Source of the DNA: Nocardia beijingensis NBRC 16342
GTDB taxonomy: Bacteria; Actinomycetota; Actinomycetes; Mycobacteriales; Mycobacteriaceae
Assembly: GCF_001612785.1 (NCBI RefSeq)
Contig: NZ_BDBC01000051.1
Span: 62,001-126,000 of the forward strand
Direction: 5' to 3'
Length of the DNA: 64,000 nt
Made by a program: the position numbers and the translations under genes. Below the pieces are notes generated by a model, which saw only the letters and a program-made list of their open reading frames with translations, searched no databases and had not been told where the DNA came from. This document shows, one piece after another, positions 1,725-28,351 of this stretch (its first letter is position 1; every line of letters starts with the position of its first letter).

Positions 1725-3680
1725 ATGGCGACAGCCGCGAAAGTCGACGCCACCGAAGAACAGGCCCGCGCACTGGTCGAGGAGTCCCGCGAAACGAGCT
1801 GGGCCAAACCGTCCTTCGCCAAGGAGATGTTCCTCGGGCGGTTCCGGCTCGACCTGATCCACCCGTATCCGCAACCCGGCCCCGAGGACGCCGAGCGCAC
1901 CGAAGCGTTCCTGTCCCGGCTGCGCACGCTGTGCGAGTCCATGGACGGATCGGTGATCGAAGCGGAGGGCCGGATCCCGGAGGAGTACGTCAAGGGTTTG
2001 GCCGAACTCGGCTGCTTCGGCCTGAAGATCCCGCAATCGTACGGCGGCCAAGGGCTTTCCCAGTTCGGCTACAACCGAGCGTTGATGCTGGTCGGCTCGA
2101 CGCACCCGAGCCTCGGCGTCCTGCTCTCCGCGCATCAGTCCATCGGGGTGCCCGAACCGCTCAAACTGGCGGGCACCGACGAGCAGAAAGCCGAGTTCCT
2201 GCCCCGCTGCGCGGCCGGAGCGGTCAGCGCGTTCCTGCTCACCGAGCCCGACGTCGGCTCCGACCCGGCCAGGATGGCCAGCACCGCGACGCCGACCGAC
2301 GACGGCGAGGCCTACCTGCTCAACGGCGTGAAGCTGTGGACGACCAACGGCGTGGTCGCCGAGCTGCTGGTGGTGATGGCACGGGTGCCCAAGAGCGAGG
2401 GCCATCGCGGCGGCATCTCGGCGTTCGTCGTCGAAGCCGACTCCCCGGGCATCACCGTCGAGCGGCGCAACTCCTTCATGGGCCTGCGCGGCATCGAGAA
2501 CGGCCTGACCCGCATGCACGACGTCCGGGTGCCGAAGCGCAACCTGATCGGCCGGGAGGGCGACGGCCTCAAGATCGCGCTCACCACCCTGAACGCGGGC
2601 AGGCTCGCCATTCCGGCGTTGTGCACCGCCGCCGCGAAGTGGTCGTTGAAGATCGCGCGGGAGTGGAGCACCCAGCGGGTGCAGTGGGGCAGGCCGGTGG
2701 GCGAGCACGCGGCCGTCGGCCAGAAGATCGCGTTCATCGCGGCGACCACGTTCGCGCTGGAAGCGGCGCTCGATCTGTCGGCGACCATGTCCGACGAGGG
2801 CCGCAACGACATCCGGATCGAGGCGGCGCTGGCCAAGCTGTGGGCCAGCGAGATGAGCTGCCGGATCGCCGACGAACTCGTGCAGATCCGCGGCGGCCGC
2901 GGCTACGAGACGGCGGCGTCGCTCGCCGCGCGCGGCGAACGGGCCGTCCCCGCCGAGCAGCTGGTGCGCGATCTGCGGATCAACCGCATCTTCGAAGGTT
3001 CCAGCGAGATCATGCGGCTGCTGATCGCCAGGGAGATGGCCGACGCGCACATGGCGGCCGCGGGCGCGCTGGTCGACCGCAAGGCCGAGTTCAAAGACAA
3101 GGCGAAGGCCGCGGTCGGCGCGACGGGTTTCTACGCCAAGTGGTTCCCGCAACTCGCGGTCGGCGCGGGTACGGTGCCCGCGGCGTACACCGAATTCGGG
3201 GTGCTGGCCCGGCATCTGCGCTTCGTCGAGCGCAGCGCGCGCAAGCAGGCCAGGTCGCTGATGTACGCGATGGGCCGCTGGCAGGCGGGGCTGGAGTACC
3301 GGCAGAACTTCCTGGGCCGGATCGTGGACATCGGCGCCGAGCTGTTCGCGATGTCGGCGGCCTGCGTGCGCGCCCACGCGTTGCGGGCAGCGGACGCGCC
3401 GGAGGGCAAGGCGGCCGAAGAACTGGCCGACACCTTCTGCAGGCAGTCCCGGCTGCGGGTGCGCGAGTTGTTCGACGCGCTGTGGGAGAACACCGACGAT
3501 GACGACCGCACCCTGACCCGCGGCGTGCTCGACGGCCGTTACGAATGGCTGGAGGACGGCGTGCTCGACCCGAGCGAGGGGACCGGCCCGTGGATCGCGG
3601 AGTGGCAGATGGGGCCGTCGACCGAAGAGAACCTCCTGCACCCGTTCCTGCCGTCCACCCGTCCCGGCGCGAAGGCCTGA
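1725..3680 (+). CDS. Acyl-CoA dehydrogenase, long (VLCAD/FadE-like)
   Basis: This 651-residue flavoenzyme should catalyse FAD-dependent alpha,beta-desaturation of acyl-CoAs in beta-oxidation. The sequence shows the acyl-CoA dehydrogenase N-terminal and middle domains (LTEPDVGSDPA near residue 170, then the KLWTTNG strand) and the C-terminal four-helix domain with RIFEGSSEIMR. Glu424 in that motif is at the position of the catalytic base of medium- and very-long-chain enzymes. About 200 further residues follow, as in VLCAD/ACAD9-type proteins (about 650 aa), suggesting long substrates. The start follows GGGAGGA with 4-bp spacing. It is monocistronic: a CRP-like palindrome precedes it and a strong hairpin follows the stop. 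Substrate is inference. Confidence 0.93.
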   Translation: MATAAKVDATEEQARALVEESRETSWAKPSFAKEMFLGRFRLDLIHPYPQPGPEDAERTEAFLSRLRTLCESMDGSVIEAEGRIPEEYVKGLAELGCFGLKIPQSYGGQGLSQFGYNRALMLVGSTHPSLGVLLSAHQSIGVPEPLKLAGTDEQKAEFLPRCAAGAVSAFLLTEPDVGSDPARMASTATPTDDGEAYLLNGVKLWTTNGVVAELLVVMARVPKSEGHRGGISAFVVEADSPGITVERRNSFMGLRGIENGLTRMHDVRVPKRNLIGREGDGLKIALTTLNAGRLAIPALCTAAAKWSLKIAREWSTQRVQWGRPVGEHAAVGQKIAFIAATTFALEAALDLSATMSDEGRNDIRIEAALAKLWASEMSCRIADELVQIRGGRGYETAASLAARGERAVPAEQLVRDLRINRIFEGSSEIMRLLIAREMADAHMAAAGALVDRKAEFKDKAKAAVGATGFYAKWFPQLAVGAGTVPAAYTEFGVLARHLRFVERSARKQARSLMYAMGRWQAGLEYRQNFLGRIVDIGAELFAMSAACVRAHALRAADAPEGKAAEELADTFCRQSRLRVRELFDALWENTDDDDRTLTRGVLDGRYEWLEDGVLDPSEGTGPWIAEWQMGPSTEENLLHPFLPSTRPGAKA

Positions 3681-3690
3681 GCAGCGGCCG

Positions 3691-3725
3691 GGCTCGTCGC
3701 ACGCCCGTCGAGCGTGCGGCGAGCC
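3691..3725 (+). terminator. Hairpin terminator after acyl-CoA dehydrogenase
   Basis: Arms GGCTCGTCGCACGC (3691-3704) and GCGTGCGGCGAGCC (3712-3725) form a 14-pair stem with one G-T wobble and a 7-base loop, 10 bases after the stop codon. There is no T tract, as is usual in actinobacteria. Confidence 0.7.
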
Positions 3726-4020
3726 GGGCTCGCCCACTATTTGCCACTATTGGAATTTCCCTAGACAACCGCAGATTTTCCTCGCGGGCCGCGCGACAGG
3801 TTCGTCCCGACGGAAATCAGCGCAATCTAAAGGAATCTAGCTTTTTGTCTAGCATTCCGTAGTTCTTCCTGTGCGCGTGGCGACAGCTGCCCGATCGACC
3901 GGCGGCGTCGGTTGGACAACGTGTGCGTAACGGCAGGTGTAGGGGGGTAACGGCGCGGAAATCCAGTTCGACAACTGGGCAGGAGACGCCGAACATGCGC
4001 CTCGCCCACAGGAGGGTGCC
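3726..4020. other. Intergenic region upstream of the hydrolase, no gene seen
   Basis: About 300 bases without a supportable coding frame. The first half is A+T-richer than the surroundings (3738-3860, with several CTAG tetramers), the second half has a run of seven G near 3941-3947. It should hold the promoter of the hydrolase gene at 4021, but I cannot define a -35/-10 pair with confidence. Confidence 0.5.
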
Positions 4021-4983
4021 ATGTCCACCACCATCGCCCGCCGCGCCGCCGATCACGACGGCCACCGCATCACGGTGTCGGCCGAAGACGGTGTCCCTCT
4101 CGCGGTCCGCGTCTTCGGCGCCGACGACGCCCTCGCGAGCGTCGTCTTCGTGCACGGCCACTGCCTGCGGGCCGAATCCTGGACCTCCTTGCGCGCACAC
4201 CTCCTGCGACAGTGGGGCGACGACATCAGGATGGTTTTCTACGACCACCGCGGCCACGGCGAGTCCGGGATGGCGCATCCGTCGACGTACACCATCGAGC
4301 AGCTCGGGCACGACCTCGACACCGTGCTGCGGACGGTCGCGCCGACCGGTCCGGTAATCCTGGTCGGCCACTCGATGGGCGCGATGGTCGTGCTCGCCTA
4401 TGCGCGGCTCTACCCGCAGGCCATCGGCACGCGGATCGCGGGCGTCGGGTTGCTCGCCGGCGCGGCCGCCGGGATCACCGACGCCGGGCTGGCGCGCCTG
4501 CTGCATCGGCGCGCGGTGAACTCGCTGCAAGCCGCCGTCACGCACGCCCCTCGGGTGATGCAGGCGTCCCGGCGCCTGACCCGCAGCCTCTTCGCGCCGA
4601 TCCTGCGCGAGGCCGAATTCGGCACCGGGAAGGTGAACCCGCGGTTGGCCGCGCTGGCCACCGCGATGCTGAACGACACCCCGCTGGTGACCATGGCCGG
4701 ATTCCTGCACTCGCTGATCACCTTCGACGAGACGGCGACCCTGCACCACCTCGGCGCCGTCCCCGCGCTGGTCCTGGCGGGTTCGGCCGACCTCATCTTT
4801 CCCTTCGCCCACTCCGTGGCACTGGCCTCACAGCTGGCCGGTTCCGAATTGGTCCGGCTGGAAGGGGCCGGGCACAGCGTGCTGCTCGAACGAGCCGAAG
4901 AGGTCGCGCTCTCCCTCGCCGGACTCGCCGAGCGCGCGTTCGCCGCGGCGCGCCCCTCCGCCGGCTACGCCGCTGCGGGCTGA
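4021..4983 (+). CDS. Alpha/beta hydrolase
   Basis: A 320-residue alpha/beta-hydrolase-fold enzyme. The visible landmarks are the oxyanion-region HGHC near residue 44, the nucleophile elbow GHSMG with Ser118, a late Asp in GSADLIFP and the catalytic His in GAGHSVLLE. All three catalytic positions are therefore present. There is no signal peptide, so it should act in the cytoplasm. The substrate cannot be told from sequence; mycobacterial relatives are annotated as lipases, esterases or haloperoxidase-like enzymes. The ATG at 4021 follows AGGAGGG (4011-4017), which decides the start. It stands alone. Confidence 0.88.
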   Translation: MSTTIARRAADHDGHRITVSAEDGVPLAVRVFGADDALASVVFVHGHCLRAESWTSLRAHLLRQWGDDIRMVFYDHRGHGESGMAHPSTYTIEQLGHDLDTVLRTVAPTGPVILVGHSMGAMVVLAYARLYPQAIGTRIAGVGLLAGAAAGITDAGLARLLHRRAVNSLQAAVTHAPRVMQASRRLTRSLFAPILREAEFGTGKVNPRLAALATAMLNDTPLVTMAGFLHSLITFDETATLHHLGAVPALVLAGSADLIFPFAHSVALASQLAGSELVRLEGAGHSVLLERAEEVALSLAGLAERAFAAARPSAGYAAAG

Positions 4984-21192: not shown

Positions 21193-22263
21193 CTACTGCG
21201 GCAGGAGTTCCAGCCGCACGCCGAGCAGACGAACCGGGCGGTCGAGGTCGAACCGTTCGACGATGCGCACCGCCGTCTCGGCGATTCGCGCGACGTCGAT
21301 GGTGGGTTCGGGCAGTTTCTCCTGTTTGCTGCGGGTGTAGAAGGTGTTCGTGCGCACGGTCACCGAGACGCGGGTGCCGATCCGGCCCGCCGCGGCCATC
21401 TCCTCGGCGACCTCGGTGGCCAGCCGCGCGACTTGGGCGCGGATCTCGCCGGGATCGGTCAGATCGTGCGGGAAGGTCTCGGATTTGCTTCGGCCGACCG
21501 GGATTCGCGGGTCGGTGGTGACGTCCGTATCGCCTTTGCCGTGGCCGAGCACCCAGAGATACGGACCGGTGTTCGGCCCGAATTCGGCGGCCAGGCGATT
21601 CCGGTCCGCCGCCATCAACTCGCCGACAGTGCGAATGCCGAGTTCGGCGAGCCGGGCGGCGATGCGGCTGCCGATGCCCCACAGCGCGTCGGTCGGGCGG
21701 TGGGCCATGATCTCGGTCCAGTTCGCGGCGGTGAGCCGGAAGACGCCGGCGGCGGCGCCCGCGCCCGCGGCGGGCTCGGCCGAGGACTTGCCCGCCGACT
21801 TGGCGAAGCCGGTCGCGAGTTTGGCGGTGAGTTTGTTGTCCCCGATGCCGATCGAGCAGGTCAGATCGAGGCCGGCGATGGCCTCGCGCACCTGCCGCGC
21901 GAGTGCTTCCGGATGGTCGGTGTCGGCGGCGAGGAACGCCTCGTCCCAGCCCCATACTTCGACGCGTCCGGGGAACGTCCGCAGCAGGGCCATGACCTCG
22001 TCGGAGGCATCCTCGTAAGCGGCCATGTCCAAGGGGAGGAACACGCCGTCGGGACACTTGCGCTGGGCGCTGCGCAGCGGCATTCCGGCCCGCACGCCGA
22101 ACGCGCGCGCCGGATAGGACGCGCAGGTCACCACCTTGCGCGGCTCGCTGGGATCGCCGTGGCCGCCGACGATGACCGGCAGTCCCCGCAGTTCCGGATG
22201 ACGGCGGAACTCCACCGCCGCCTGGAACTGATCGAGATCGACGTGCAACAGCCATCTGGCCAC
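21193..22263 (-). CDS. dinB: Y-family DNA polymerase, DinB2 type, with Gln at the steric-gate position
   Basis: A 356-residue translesion polymerase closely resembling mycobacterial DinB2/DinP (Rv3056). Metal ligands Asp9 (HVDLDQF), Asp107 and Glu108 (WGWDEAFLA) are present. The palm motif CSIGIGDNKLTAKLATGFAKSAGK and a little-finger domain ending RPVRLLGVRLELLPQ follow. There is no C-terminal beta-clamp peptide of the usual QL-x-LF form visible. The residue two after Phe13-1 in DLDQFQ, Gln14, aligns with the steric-gate Tyr/Phe of Dpo4 and Pol IV, and with Leu14 of mycobacterial DinB2. Start is GTG at 22261-22263, weak ribosome-binding site. Confidence 0.9.
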   Translation of the reverse strand: MARWLLHVDLDQFQAAVEFRRHPELRGLPVIVGGHGDPSEPRKVVTCASYPARAFGVRAGMPLRSAQRKCPDGVFLPLDMAAYEDASDEVMALLRTFPGRVEVWGWDEAFLAADTDHPEALARQVREAIAGLDLTCSIGIGDNKLTAKLATGFAKSAGKSSAEPAAGAGAAAGVFRLTAANWTEIMAHRPTDALWGIGSRIAARLAELGIRTVGELMAADRNRLAAEFGPNTGPYLWVLGHGKGDTDVTTDPRIPVGRSKSETFPHDLTDPGEIRAQVARLATEVAEEMAAAGRIGTRVSVTVRTNTFYTRSKQEKLPEPTIDVARIAETAVRIVERFDLDRPVRLLGVRLELLPQ

Positions 22264-22419: not shown

Positions 22420-23004
22420 ATGAAGATTCGAGATCGGTTGCTGTTGGCAGCCGAGCGCCAGTTCGCCGAGCACGGCGCGCTCGACGCGACGCTGACGCAG
22501 ATCCGCGCCGCGGCGGGCGCCAGCGTCGGCGCGCTTTATCACCACTTCCCCGACAAGTCCGACCTGTACCGGCAGGTCTGGGCCAACGCACTGGTGGACT
22601 ATCAGGAGCATTTCTGGGCGGTGGTCGGCGACAGCGCCGACGCGCGCGAAGGCGTCGTCGTCGGCGTGCACGAGCATTTGCGCTGGGTGAGCGAGAACCA
22701 GTACCGCGCCACCGTGCTCACCGCGGCGCGGCCGCCAGGGGTGCGCGAGAGCGAGAGCAATCGCCGCTTCATGTCCGACGTGACGCGATGGTGGCGCACG
22801 CACGCCGGATACGGGGCGGTGCGGGATCTCCCGATCGATCTGGTCTACGCGCTGTGGCTCGGCCCGGCGCAGGAGTACACGCGGCAGTGGCTCGGCGGGG
22901 AGATGCGCCTCGCCCCCGACCGAGTCGCGGGCGAACTCGCCGACGCCGCCTGGCTCGCCCTCGCCGCCGACCGCCCCCGTGCCGCGAAAGAGGTCTCCCG
23001 ATGA
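22420..23004 (+). CDS. TetR-family transcriptional regulator
   Basis: A 194-residue TetR-type repressor. The N-terminal helix-turn-helix is LLLAAERQFAEHGALDATLTQIRAA, followed by GASVGALYHHFPDKSDLYRQV, the classic recognition-helix region (residues 5-50). The ligand-binding C-terminal domain has no assignable ligand. The ATG comes 3 bases after a perfect palindrome, with no ribosome-binding site, so a leaderless mRNA is likely. The stop overlaps the start of the thioesterase (ATGA), so the two are cotranscribed and presumably the regulator controls acyl-CoA-related metabolism. Confidence 0.93.
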   Translation: MKIRDRLLLAAERQFAEHGALDATLTQIRAAAGASVGALYHHFPDKSDLYRQVWANALVDYQEHFWAVVGDSADAREGVVVGVHEHLRWVSENQYRATVLTAARPPGVRESESNRRFMSDVTRWWRTHAGYGAVRDLPIDLVYALWLGPAQEYTRQWLGGEMRLAPDRVAGELADAAWLALAADRPRAAKEVSR

Positions 23005-26091: not shown

Positions 26092-27447
26092 ATGTCGTCG
26101 CTCGCCGCTGGCGTGTTCATCGACTGGGAAAGCCTGACCGGGCAGCCGAAATTCGTGGTCGACCTGATCACGTTCCCGATCTTCAGCGCGCTGGCGGGAT
26201 GGCTGACCAACTGGACCGGCGTGCTGATGCTGTTCTGGCCGATCGTCTTTCGCGGCATCCGCATCCCCGGCCTGCACGTGCTCTACCCGTATTTCCCGCG
26301 CCGGGTGCAAGTGCTGCCGACCTTCTCCGGTGACGGCCGCCGCCTCGGATTCCAGGGCTTCATCCCGGCGCGCGCGGAGAAGATGGCCAGTATCTGCGTG
26401 GACAAGGCCCTGATGCGGATCGGCAGTCCCAAGGACTTCATCCACGAACTCGATCTCGACGGCATCGCCGACTACATCGCGGTGCTCGCGCGCGAGCAGG
26501 TGCGCCCGCTGGTGGACGAGCTGATGTACCGGGAGAACCCTGACCTGTGGCGTTCGGTGCCGCGCGCGGCCAAGCAATTGATCTACCAGCGGGTGGATCG
26601 GGAACTGCCCGCGCTGTCGCGCCGCGCGTTCGCGTCGCTCGGCGACAACGTCGACCAGTTGATCGGCATCAAGGGCTTCGTGATCCGCTACCTGCAGGAC
26701 AACCCGGCCATCCTCAAGGACCTCACCACCACCATCGCGGCGCCCGAACTGCGGTTCATGGTGCGCATCGGCTTGCTCGGCGCGCCCTTCGGCGTGCTGC
26801 TCGCTCTGTACCTGCATGTGCACCAGCAGATTCCGGTGCTCGGCTGGGTACCCGGCTGGGTGATCGTTCTGCTCGCCTCGGCGGCGATCGGCGTGATCGT
26901 GAACGTCATCGCGGTGAAGATGGTGTTCGAGCCGGGTGACCCGCAACCGAGGTACAAGTACCTGTGGAAGCAAGCGCTGCTGGCGAAGCGGCAGCCGCAG
27001 GCGGCGACCGATCTGGCGCACATCCTGGCCTACCAGGTGCTGACGCTGCCCAATCTGTCGAAAGAGCTGCTGGAGGGCCCGAACGGGGACAAGACCAGGC
27101 AGTTGCTGGAGCGCCTCATCGCCGACGAGATCAATCGCCAGCTCGGGCCGACCACCACGCTGGTGCGGGCGGCGCTGGGCCGTCGTCAGTTCGACAACCT
27201 CACCGTCGGCGCGGCGGGCGCCGCCGTCGGCTTGGCGCCGACCCTGGCCGAGGACGAGGAGTTCATCCGGGAGCAGGCCAAGACCATCGATGAGTTCGCC
27301 GCGCGTAAGCTGCGGCGGCTCACTCCGGGGGAGTTCATGGAGATGTTCTACGCCTCCGTCGAACAGGACGCCTGGCTGCTGTATCTGCACGGTGCGGTGC
27401 TCGGCCTTGCCGTGGGAGCCACCCACCTGCTCCTTTTCGGCTGGTAG
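26092..27447 (+). CDS. DUF445 family membrane protein
   Basis: A 451-residue protein with membrane segments at the N-terminus (LITFPIFSALAGWLTNWTGVLMLFWPI), in the middle (LLGAPFGVLLALYLHV and VIVLLASAAIGVIVNVIAVKMVF) and at the extreme C-terminus (LLYLHGAVLGLAVGATHLLLFGW). The paired segments GWLTNW and NVIAVKMVFEP are the DUF445 hallmark (usually G-Y-I-T-N-W and K-M-L-F-R-P). The large helical soluble region between them is typical. Function is unknown in the family. ATG at 26092 has GGGAG about 10 bases upstream. It is divergent from lon. Confidence 0.85.
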   Translation: MSSLAAGVFIDWESLTGQPKFVVDLITFPIFSALAGWLTNWTGVLMLFWPIVFRGIRIPGLHVLYPYFPRRVQVLPTFSGDGRRLGFQGFIPARAEKMASICVDKALMRIGSPKDFIHELDLDGIADYIAVLAREQVRPLVDELMYRENPDLWRSVPRAAKQLIYQRVDRELPALSRRAFASLGDNVDQLIGIKGFVIRYLQDNPAILKDLTTTIAAPELRFMVRIGLLGAPFGVLLALYLHVHQQIPVLGWVPGWVIVLLASAAIGVIVNVIAVKMVFEPGDPQPRYKYLWKQALLAKRQPQAATDLAHILAYQVLTLPNLSKELLEGPNGDKTRQLLERLIADEINRQLGPTTTLVRAALGRRQFDNLTVGAAGAAVGLAPTLAEDEEFIREQAKTIDEFAARKLRRLTPGEFMEMFYASVEQDAWLLYLHGAVLGLAVGATHLLLFGW

Positions 27448-27559
27448 CGGGCCCATCGCCGCCAAGATAAAACAAGCATGCTTGCCTTTTTTTGGCCTCG
27501 CTGCGATGCTGGACGCCGGTGGCGCACGAGGCGGTGTGCCCGGGACGGCAGGGGCACAG

Positions 27560-28351
27560 ATGGCTGATCTAGAGGCTTTGCTCGGCGATTTCGCCGACGA
27601 ATGCGCGGACCTGGAACGACTCGTCGCCGCGCTGGCGCCCGAGGAATGGGCGCGCGCCACGCCCGCGCCCGGCTGGACCATCTCTCATCAGATCGGGCAT
27701 CTGGCCTGGACCGACGAGATCGCGACGATCGCCACCGCGGACGCCGCCCGCTTCCAGCAGTTGCTGACCGAAGCGGGGCCCCGCGCGCTCACCTTCGTCG
27801 ACGAGGCCGCCGAGAAAGCGGCGACCGAACCGCCCGCCGAGTTGCTCGACCGCTGGCGCCGTGGGCGCGCCGCGCTCGCCACCGCGCTGCGGGCGGTGCC
27901 CGCGGGCGCCAAATTGCCCTGGTTCGGCCCGCCGATGAGCGCCGCGTCGATGATCTCCGCCCGCATCATGGAGACCTGGGCGCACGGGCAGGACGTAGCC
28001 GATGCCGTCGGCGTGCACCGCTTGCCGACGGCGCGGCTGCGCACCGTGGCGCATATCGGCGTGCGCACCAGGAATTTCGCTTACACCGTGCACGGAAAGA
28101 ACCCGCCCGCAGCCGAATTCCGGGTAGAGCTCACCGCGCCGGATCGCACCATCTGGTCGTGGGGACCGGAGGACGCCGAACAGCGAGTGACCGGACCGGC
28201 GCTCGATTTCTGCCTGCTGGTGACCCAGCGCCGCCATCCGGACGATCTGGCGCTCGTGGCGCACGGCGCGGACGCCGCGGAATGGCTTACCATCGCACAG
28301 GCTTTCGCGGGCCCCTCGGGCGAGGGAAGGACGGCGGGCCAGTTCACCTGA
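27560..28351 (+). CDS. Maleylpyruvate-isomerase-type metal-binding protein (TIGR03084-like)
   Basis: A 263-residue protein of the mycothiol-dependent maleylpyruvate isomerase N-terminal (DinB-like four-helix) superfamily. The metal-site pattern is visible: WTISHQIGHLAWTDE near residues 38-52 and METWAHGQDVADAVG near 136-150, contributing His ligands. A small C-terminal beta domain follows (AEFRVELTAPDRTIWSWGPEDAEQRVTGPALDF broken over two strands). Members are thought to use mycothiol, the actinobacterial thiol; the reaction here is not known. ATG at 27560 is preceded by AGGGG. A longer frame running in from upstream is not supported. Confidence 0.83.
   Translation: MADLEALLGDFADECADLERLVAALAPEEWARATPAPGWTISHQIGHLAWTDEIATIATADAARFQQLLTEAGPRALTFVDEAAEKAATEPPAELLDRWRRGRAALATALRAVPAGAKLPWFGPPMSAASMISARIMETWAHGQDVADAVGVHRLPTARLRTVAHIGVRTRNFAYTVHGKNPPAAEFRVELTAPDRTIWSWGPEDAEQRVTGPALDFCLLVTQRRHPDDLALVAHGADAAEWLTIAQAFAGPSGEGRTAGQFT

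Follow-up and report, generated by a model that had tools for sequence, protein, structure and literature searches.

Among known systems, the closest to the polymerase analysed here is DinB2 of Mycobacterium smegmatis, which has leucine at the gate position. This enzyme incorporates ribonucleotides (rNTPs) at a rate lowered by about 2.6-6 fold. Its L14A mutant keeps rNTP use, while L14F loses it, the gate being closed (PMC4176160). DinB2 is described as having no polar filter, and its rNTP use has been ascribed to the permissive gate together with the missing filter (PMC10159617). E. coli Pol IV has an aromatic gate, Phe13, and the DinB2 gates listed in the same source consist of leucine, isoleucine and valine only (PMC4176160). 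The words "glutamine" and "Gln" are absent from the main text of that paper. Likewise, two papers that survey bacterial polymerases use neither "steric gate" nor "glutamine" in their main text (PMC6511836, PMC12926913). In the literature searched (titles and starts of abstracts, with partial coverage), we found no report of a glutamine gate in DinB2; kinetic data for any glutamine gate were not found in the literature searched either.

We analysed a window of 64,000 nucleotides from Nocardia beijingensis NBRC 16342 (contig NZ_BDBC01000051.1). The features relevant to this work are the following.

21193..22263, minus strand: dinB2, Y-family DNA polymerase of 356 amino acids, with a GTG start at 22263 and a stop ending at 21193
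22222..22224, minus strand: codon 14, CAG, glutamine at the steric-gate position by alignment to 4dez and Dpo4
22123..22125, minus strand: codon 47, cysteine by translation, proposed polar-filter position, opposite Dpo4 Thr45
22030..22032, minus strand: codon 78, leucine, a residue that, inside the Cys47 clade, varies together with the gate, opposite Dpo4 Met76
21940..21945, minus strand: codons 107-108, metal ligands Asp107-Glu108 in the GWDE motif; the third ligand is Asp9
21748..21792, minus strand: Ala/Gly-rich linker insert, residues about 158-172, a gap in MsDpo4/DinB2
22420-23004, plus strand: TetR-family regulator (PF00440), divergent from dinB2, with 156 bases between the starts

The interval 21193-22263 had been reported in a preliminary description. 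It holds a real and complete open reading frame, but the strand had been omitted: dinB2 is encoded on the minus strand, and the plus strand of the same interval translates into an unrelated frame with no such polymerase. The GC content at third codon positions is 0.87 in the dinB2 frame, and 0.52 and 0.72 in two overlapping frames. The protein reaches 535.9 bits with the NCBIfam model NF002883 (DNA polymerase IV; cut-off 330). It also exceeds the cut-offs of Pfam IMS (PF00817, 137.4 bits) and IMS_C (PF11799, 81.1 bits). The match lies well outside what chance would give. Together with the predicted fold, the two Pfam domains place the Y-family palm/fingers and little-finger domains in the product. 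The AlphaFold model has a mean pLDDT of 88.3, and its top solved folds are entries of MsDpo4, with 6jum_A first (TM 0.85 and 0.87, 54% identity). The closest solved structures by sequence are MsDpo4 6juo and 4dez (390 bits). MsDpo4 (PDB 4dez, 6jul) we take to be M. smegmatis DinB2. Tree, fold and family model concur that the Nocardia protein is a DinB2/DinP-type Y-family polymerase, as first described. IMS_C reaches residue 354 of 356, so the polymerase region stands alone without a C-terminal extension. The same organization is given for M. tuberculosis DinP (PMC6511836). The linker insert is predicted to be poorly ordered, with pLDDT below 50 at residues 158-169. The linker is longer in certain Nocardia; the match in Nocardia nova (L065) has 1158 bases versus 1068.

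The neighbours of dinB2 are an acuI-like reductase gene downstream, the divergent TetR gene, a hotdog thioesterase gene and, beyond them, lon. A TetR homolog is present in the same locus in 31/49 and 45/80 of the Nocardia loci searched, two sets that share species. By tblastn (1e-8; loci of at least 4 kb), homologs of the neighbours occur beside dinB2 in Nocardia and in one locus of genus g16 only, and a functional link to them was rejected as ordinary synteny. The GAACNNNNGTTC core is not found within 4.4 kb of the dinB2 start; two copies lie in the window, at 26746 and 37828. A mobile or phage origin of dinB2 was also rejected. The IMG/VR search, by the peptide patterns used, returned no dinB2 relative. 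Phage records gave 30 matches, all below 60% identity, the 20 listed ones lying at 28.5-33.0%, and plasmid records gave three, among them a 2.66 Mb replicon of Nocardia farcinica and an 11.85 Mb Nonomuraea record. Plasmid 5 of Tsukamurella tyrosinosolvens (L255) encodes at 3001-4044 a DinB2-type polymerase with a leucine gate and Thr47; a metallo-hydrolase gene and uvrA come after it. Another gene of the window, at 27290-28351 on the plus strand, has a product of the mycothiol maleylpyruvate isomerase type, which Pfam "DinB_2" matches as well. This Pfam superfamily is unrelated to the DinB2 polymerase despite its name.

Gln14 sits at the steric-gate position, the gate role being assigned by position. 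The alignment with 4dez is gapless across residues 1-79 and puts Gln14 opposite Leu14; in the alignment with Dpo4 it stands opposite Tyr12. Both alignments agree with the preliminary description, which is also confirmed in its reading of the codon (22224-22222, CAG) and of the metal ligands. Asp9, Asp107 and Glu108 are present here and invariant in 139/139 aligned DinB2 rows.

Compared with M. smegmatis DinB2, the Nocardia protein belongs to the same family and shares Cys47, the GWDE motif and the restriction to the polymerase region. It differs in having Gln14 instead of Leu14, Leu78 instead of Ser78, and the Ala/Gly-rich insert. Actinobacterial DinB2-like enzymes gated by isoleucine or valine (PMC4176160) likewise have a non-aromatic gate and the GWDE motif, but Thr47 instead of cysteine, in all 43 such loci. 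Sulfolobus Dpo4 and E. coli Pol IV share the Y-family fold and the metal ligands. Dpo4 differs by its Tyr12 gate and by Thr45 at the filter position. E. coli Pol IV also has threonine at the filter position, and it differs by the aromatic gate mentioned above. Gln14 is thus a non-aromatic gate, as in the DinB2 group, but lies outside the published list of leucine, isoleucine and valine. We did not take that list as defining DinB2, because glutamine and leucine rows mix in one supported clade (see below).

Our genus sample comprised 98 genomes drawn evenly, the window's own included. At a threshold of E 1e-40, a DinB2 match is present in 95 of them and three have none. All 96 Nocardia loci from these 95 genomes have Gln14, 95 read by script and one (L133) by eye; L133 ends at a contig edge, and its remaining sequence starts LDQFQ. 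Full-length Nocardia matches are 67 to 100% identical to the query with the glutamine unchanged, encoded by CAG in 92/95 loci and by CAA in 3/95. Nocardia bovistercoris has a DinB2 gene on each of two contigs (L072 and L073), both 81% identical and with Gln14; they are either a duplication or an assembly copy. Gln14 is also present in all of 80 named Nocardia loci (the best 80 of 414 relatives, at most 96% identity). These were excluded from the counts because one search pattern contains the glutamine motif.

The family sample comprised 251 genomes of 31 genera. DinB2 matches (threshold 1e-70) were found in 141/251 genomes and 20/31 genera. Outside Nocardia, 94 of the 120 matching genomes were read, covering all 19 other genera, several by one genome, and five mycobacterial genomes from the class sample were added. 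Glutamine is the sole state read in 9 of the 20 DinB2-bearing genera: g1 (Nocardia), g9, g11, g13, g15, g17, g19, g20 and g28. Genus g29 is mixed, with 6 glutamine and 16 leucine gates of 22 (five of the leucine ones from the class sample); one g29 row shares 87% identity with M. smegmatis DinB2, and on this ground we take the genus to be Mycobacterium. Leucine, isoleucine or valine gates are present in g6, g10, g16, g22, g23, g24, g25, g27, g30 and g31.

The class sample comprised 394 genomes (threshold 1e-60), with matches in 102, of which 72 lie outside the family. From 34 of these 72 genomes we took 35 loci, and the 34 loci outside the family that hold the gate region all have leucine, isoleucine or valine. 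Over the 227 loci read by script in the three samples, the gate is glutamine in 142, leucine in 42, isoleucine in 36 and valine in 7, and aromatic in none. Three of 230 loci fall outside this count: L133 and L157, both glutamine by eye, and L229, which has no gate region. The L229 match (G362:C1:3001726-3002574) is DinB2-like, starts at query residue 55 and contains one in-frame TGA. The idea of Gln14 as a peculiarity of a single gene fails: it is in every Nocardia locus read and common in the family.

We built one tree of 139 DinB2 rows, 20 of them from a thinned Nocardia set, and one of 58 rows, 7 of them from Nocardia; L229, which has no N-terminus, was excluded. M. smegmatis DinB2 is absent from the 58-row tree, in which L144 is 80% identical to it; L243 in the 139-row tree is 87% identical to it. 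The smaller tree includes two outgroup paralogs from the own genome, and columns 14 and 47 were removed before building it. This genome (7.48 Mb, 113 contigs) encodes four proteins with an IMS domain above the cut-off. The outgroup paralogs have aromatic gates, phenylalanine in L003 and tyrosine in L001. The fourth protein, L004, lacks the start of the domain in its match and is presumably ImuB-like. All 58 DinB2 rows fall into a single clade that excludes the two paralogs (100/100). Within it, a clade of 38 rows (100/99) holds all glutamine rows and the leucine rows of g16, g24 and g29. Glutamine needs three changes on this tree, also when only starred branches are considered, and the monophyly of all glutamine rows is rejected on the rooted tree (p-AU 0.0015). 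The quick 139-row tree likewise needs three changes, two of them forced by starred branches. The Cys47 clade thus holds about three exchanges between leucine and glutamine, with the direction (gain or loss) ambiguous and the root uncertain owing to the long outgroup branches. Glutamine is encoded by CAG or CAA, and leucine most often by CTG. Since CTG and CAG are one base apart, a single base can separate the two states.

The best explanation, which we consider moderately probable, is that Nocardia DinB2 would be a template-dependent translesion or gap-filling polymerase with an open Gln14 gate and weak sugar discrimination like the M. smegmatis enzyme. With Gln14 in place of the aromatic gate and Cys47 in place of the filter residue, neither of the proposed rNTP barriers is present in its usual form. 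The smaller and flexible glutamine would leave space for the 2'-OH. Consequently, rNTPs might be accepted with just a weak preference for dNTPs, as in the Leu14 enzyme, and ribonucleotide patching of DNA might be possible at low dNTP supply. Glutamine is nearer leucine than phenylalanine in size, so an open gate seems the likeliest outcome. Likewise, the apparent lack of both proposed barriers, shared with M. smegmatis DinB2, makes weak sugar discrimination the prediction we favour.

We infer that residue 47 is the polar-filter position from sequence differences among PDB entries and from papers on the filter. The MsDpo4 chains vary there, with cysteine in 4dez and 6juo and threonine in 6jum and 6jun. 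The crystallised MsDpo4 variants also vary at residue 14 (leucine or tyrosine), and a mutant Pol IV, 6jup, has alanine and cysteine at the matching places. Cys47 is present in 142/142 script-read Gln14 loci, and the leucine loci have cysteine in 22, threonine in 19 and serine in 1. This tie between Gln14 and Cys47 amounts to 2-3 independent pairs and is not significant, with column 47 changing twice on the 139-row tree. Cys47 alone proves little, because the filter is disputed, Rev1 selects poorly and paralogs have other residues there. More precisely, the polar-filter mechanism has been argued against with Y-family structures included (PMC10639073), Rev1 shows poor sugar selection with both gate and filter present (PMC9130138), and the aromatic-gated paralogs of the own genome have alanine and glycine at this position.

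A polar residue does not mean an open gate, because glutamate acts as the gate residue in family A polymerases (PMC10639073). Gln14 could then be hydrogen-bonded over the C2' face and exclude rNTPs, so that the glutamine lineages would have regained sugar discrimination. The recurrence of glutamine lineages, with glutamine retained inside each, is consistent with such a gate. So is residue 78, which varies with the gate and would fit a re-packed pocket: its counterpart Dpo4 Met76 lies in the ceiling above the nascent pair (PMC6273265). Among rows with Cys/Ser47, the 54 with Gln14 have at position 78 leucine (37), glutamine (8), threonine (6) or valine (3), and never serine, while those with Leu14 have serine in 21/23. 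In eight of 356 columns, the gate included, three glutamine groups have a commonest residue in common that is not the commonest in two leucine groups. Of these eight, columns 14 and 78 alone show a difference above 0.85 in each of the three contrasts, which were picked after the gates had been seen and use one leucine group twice. Nevertheless, columns 19 and 80 fully separate the same groups in all three contrasts, with a residue that differs per group. Because they separate the groups equally, residue 78 may mark descent only. Given the few events and the post hoc choice, the link of residue 78 to the gate is to be taken as a lead. Moreover, family A is a separate polymerase family, so the shared polar, non-aromatic gate would be a functional parallel at most, and we found no residue that could act as a partner of Gln14. 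We therefore consider an rNTP-excluding Gln14 fairly unlikely.

The gate might instead be tuned for base fidelity, mispair or lesion bypass, slippage or manganese use, with sugar choice as a by-product that is similar for leucine and glutamine. When overexpressed, the L14F form of M. smegmatis DinB2 slows growth and is more lethal than the wild type (PMC10159617), so the gate site influences more than rNTP use. The alignment places position 78 at the nascent base pair, which points in the same direction. On the other side, the rNTP use kept by L14A (PMC4176160) is consistent with indifference of the gate to sugar but uninformative on fidelity. Such a tuning seems distinctly unlikely to us.

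It is highly improbable that the Gln14 amide hydrogen-bonds the ribose 2'-OH, which would make the enzyme an rNTP-preferring RNA polymerase for repair, evolved repeatedly and independently, its residue 78 being re-packed around the glutamine. Finally, an origin of Gln14 in sequencing error, frameshift or misalignment has practically no probability, being refuted by the agreement of 96/96 genus-sample loci and by an alignment that puts glutamine, and no other residue, in the gate column with no gap near the motif.

Returning to the open-gate reading, the glutamine gate is, judged by sequence, a natural variant of a ribonucleotide-tolerant enzyme group, and the tolerance of the glutamine form itself is predicted. 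The exchanges of leucine and glutamine in otherwise similar enzymes, without the proposed filter residue, provide natural pairs for testing how a polymerase chooses its sugar. The same pairs bear on how widely ribonucleotide patching occurs across Nocardia, the mycobacteria and their relatives.
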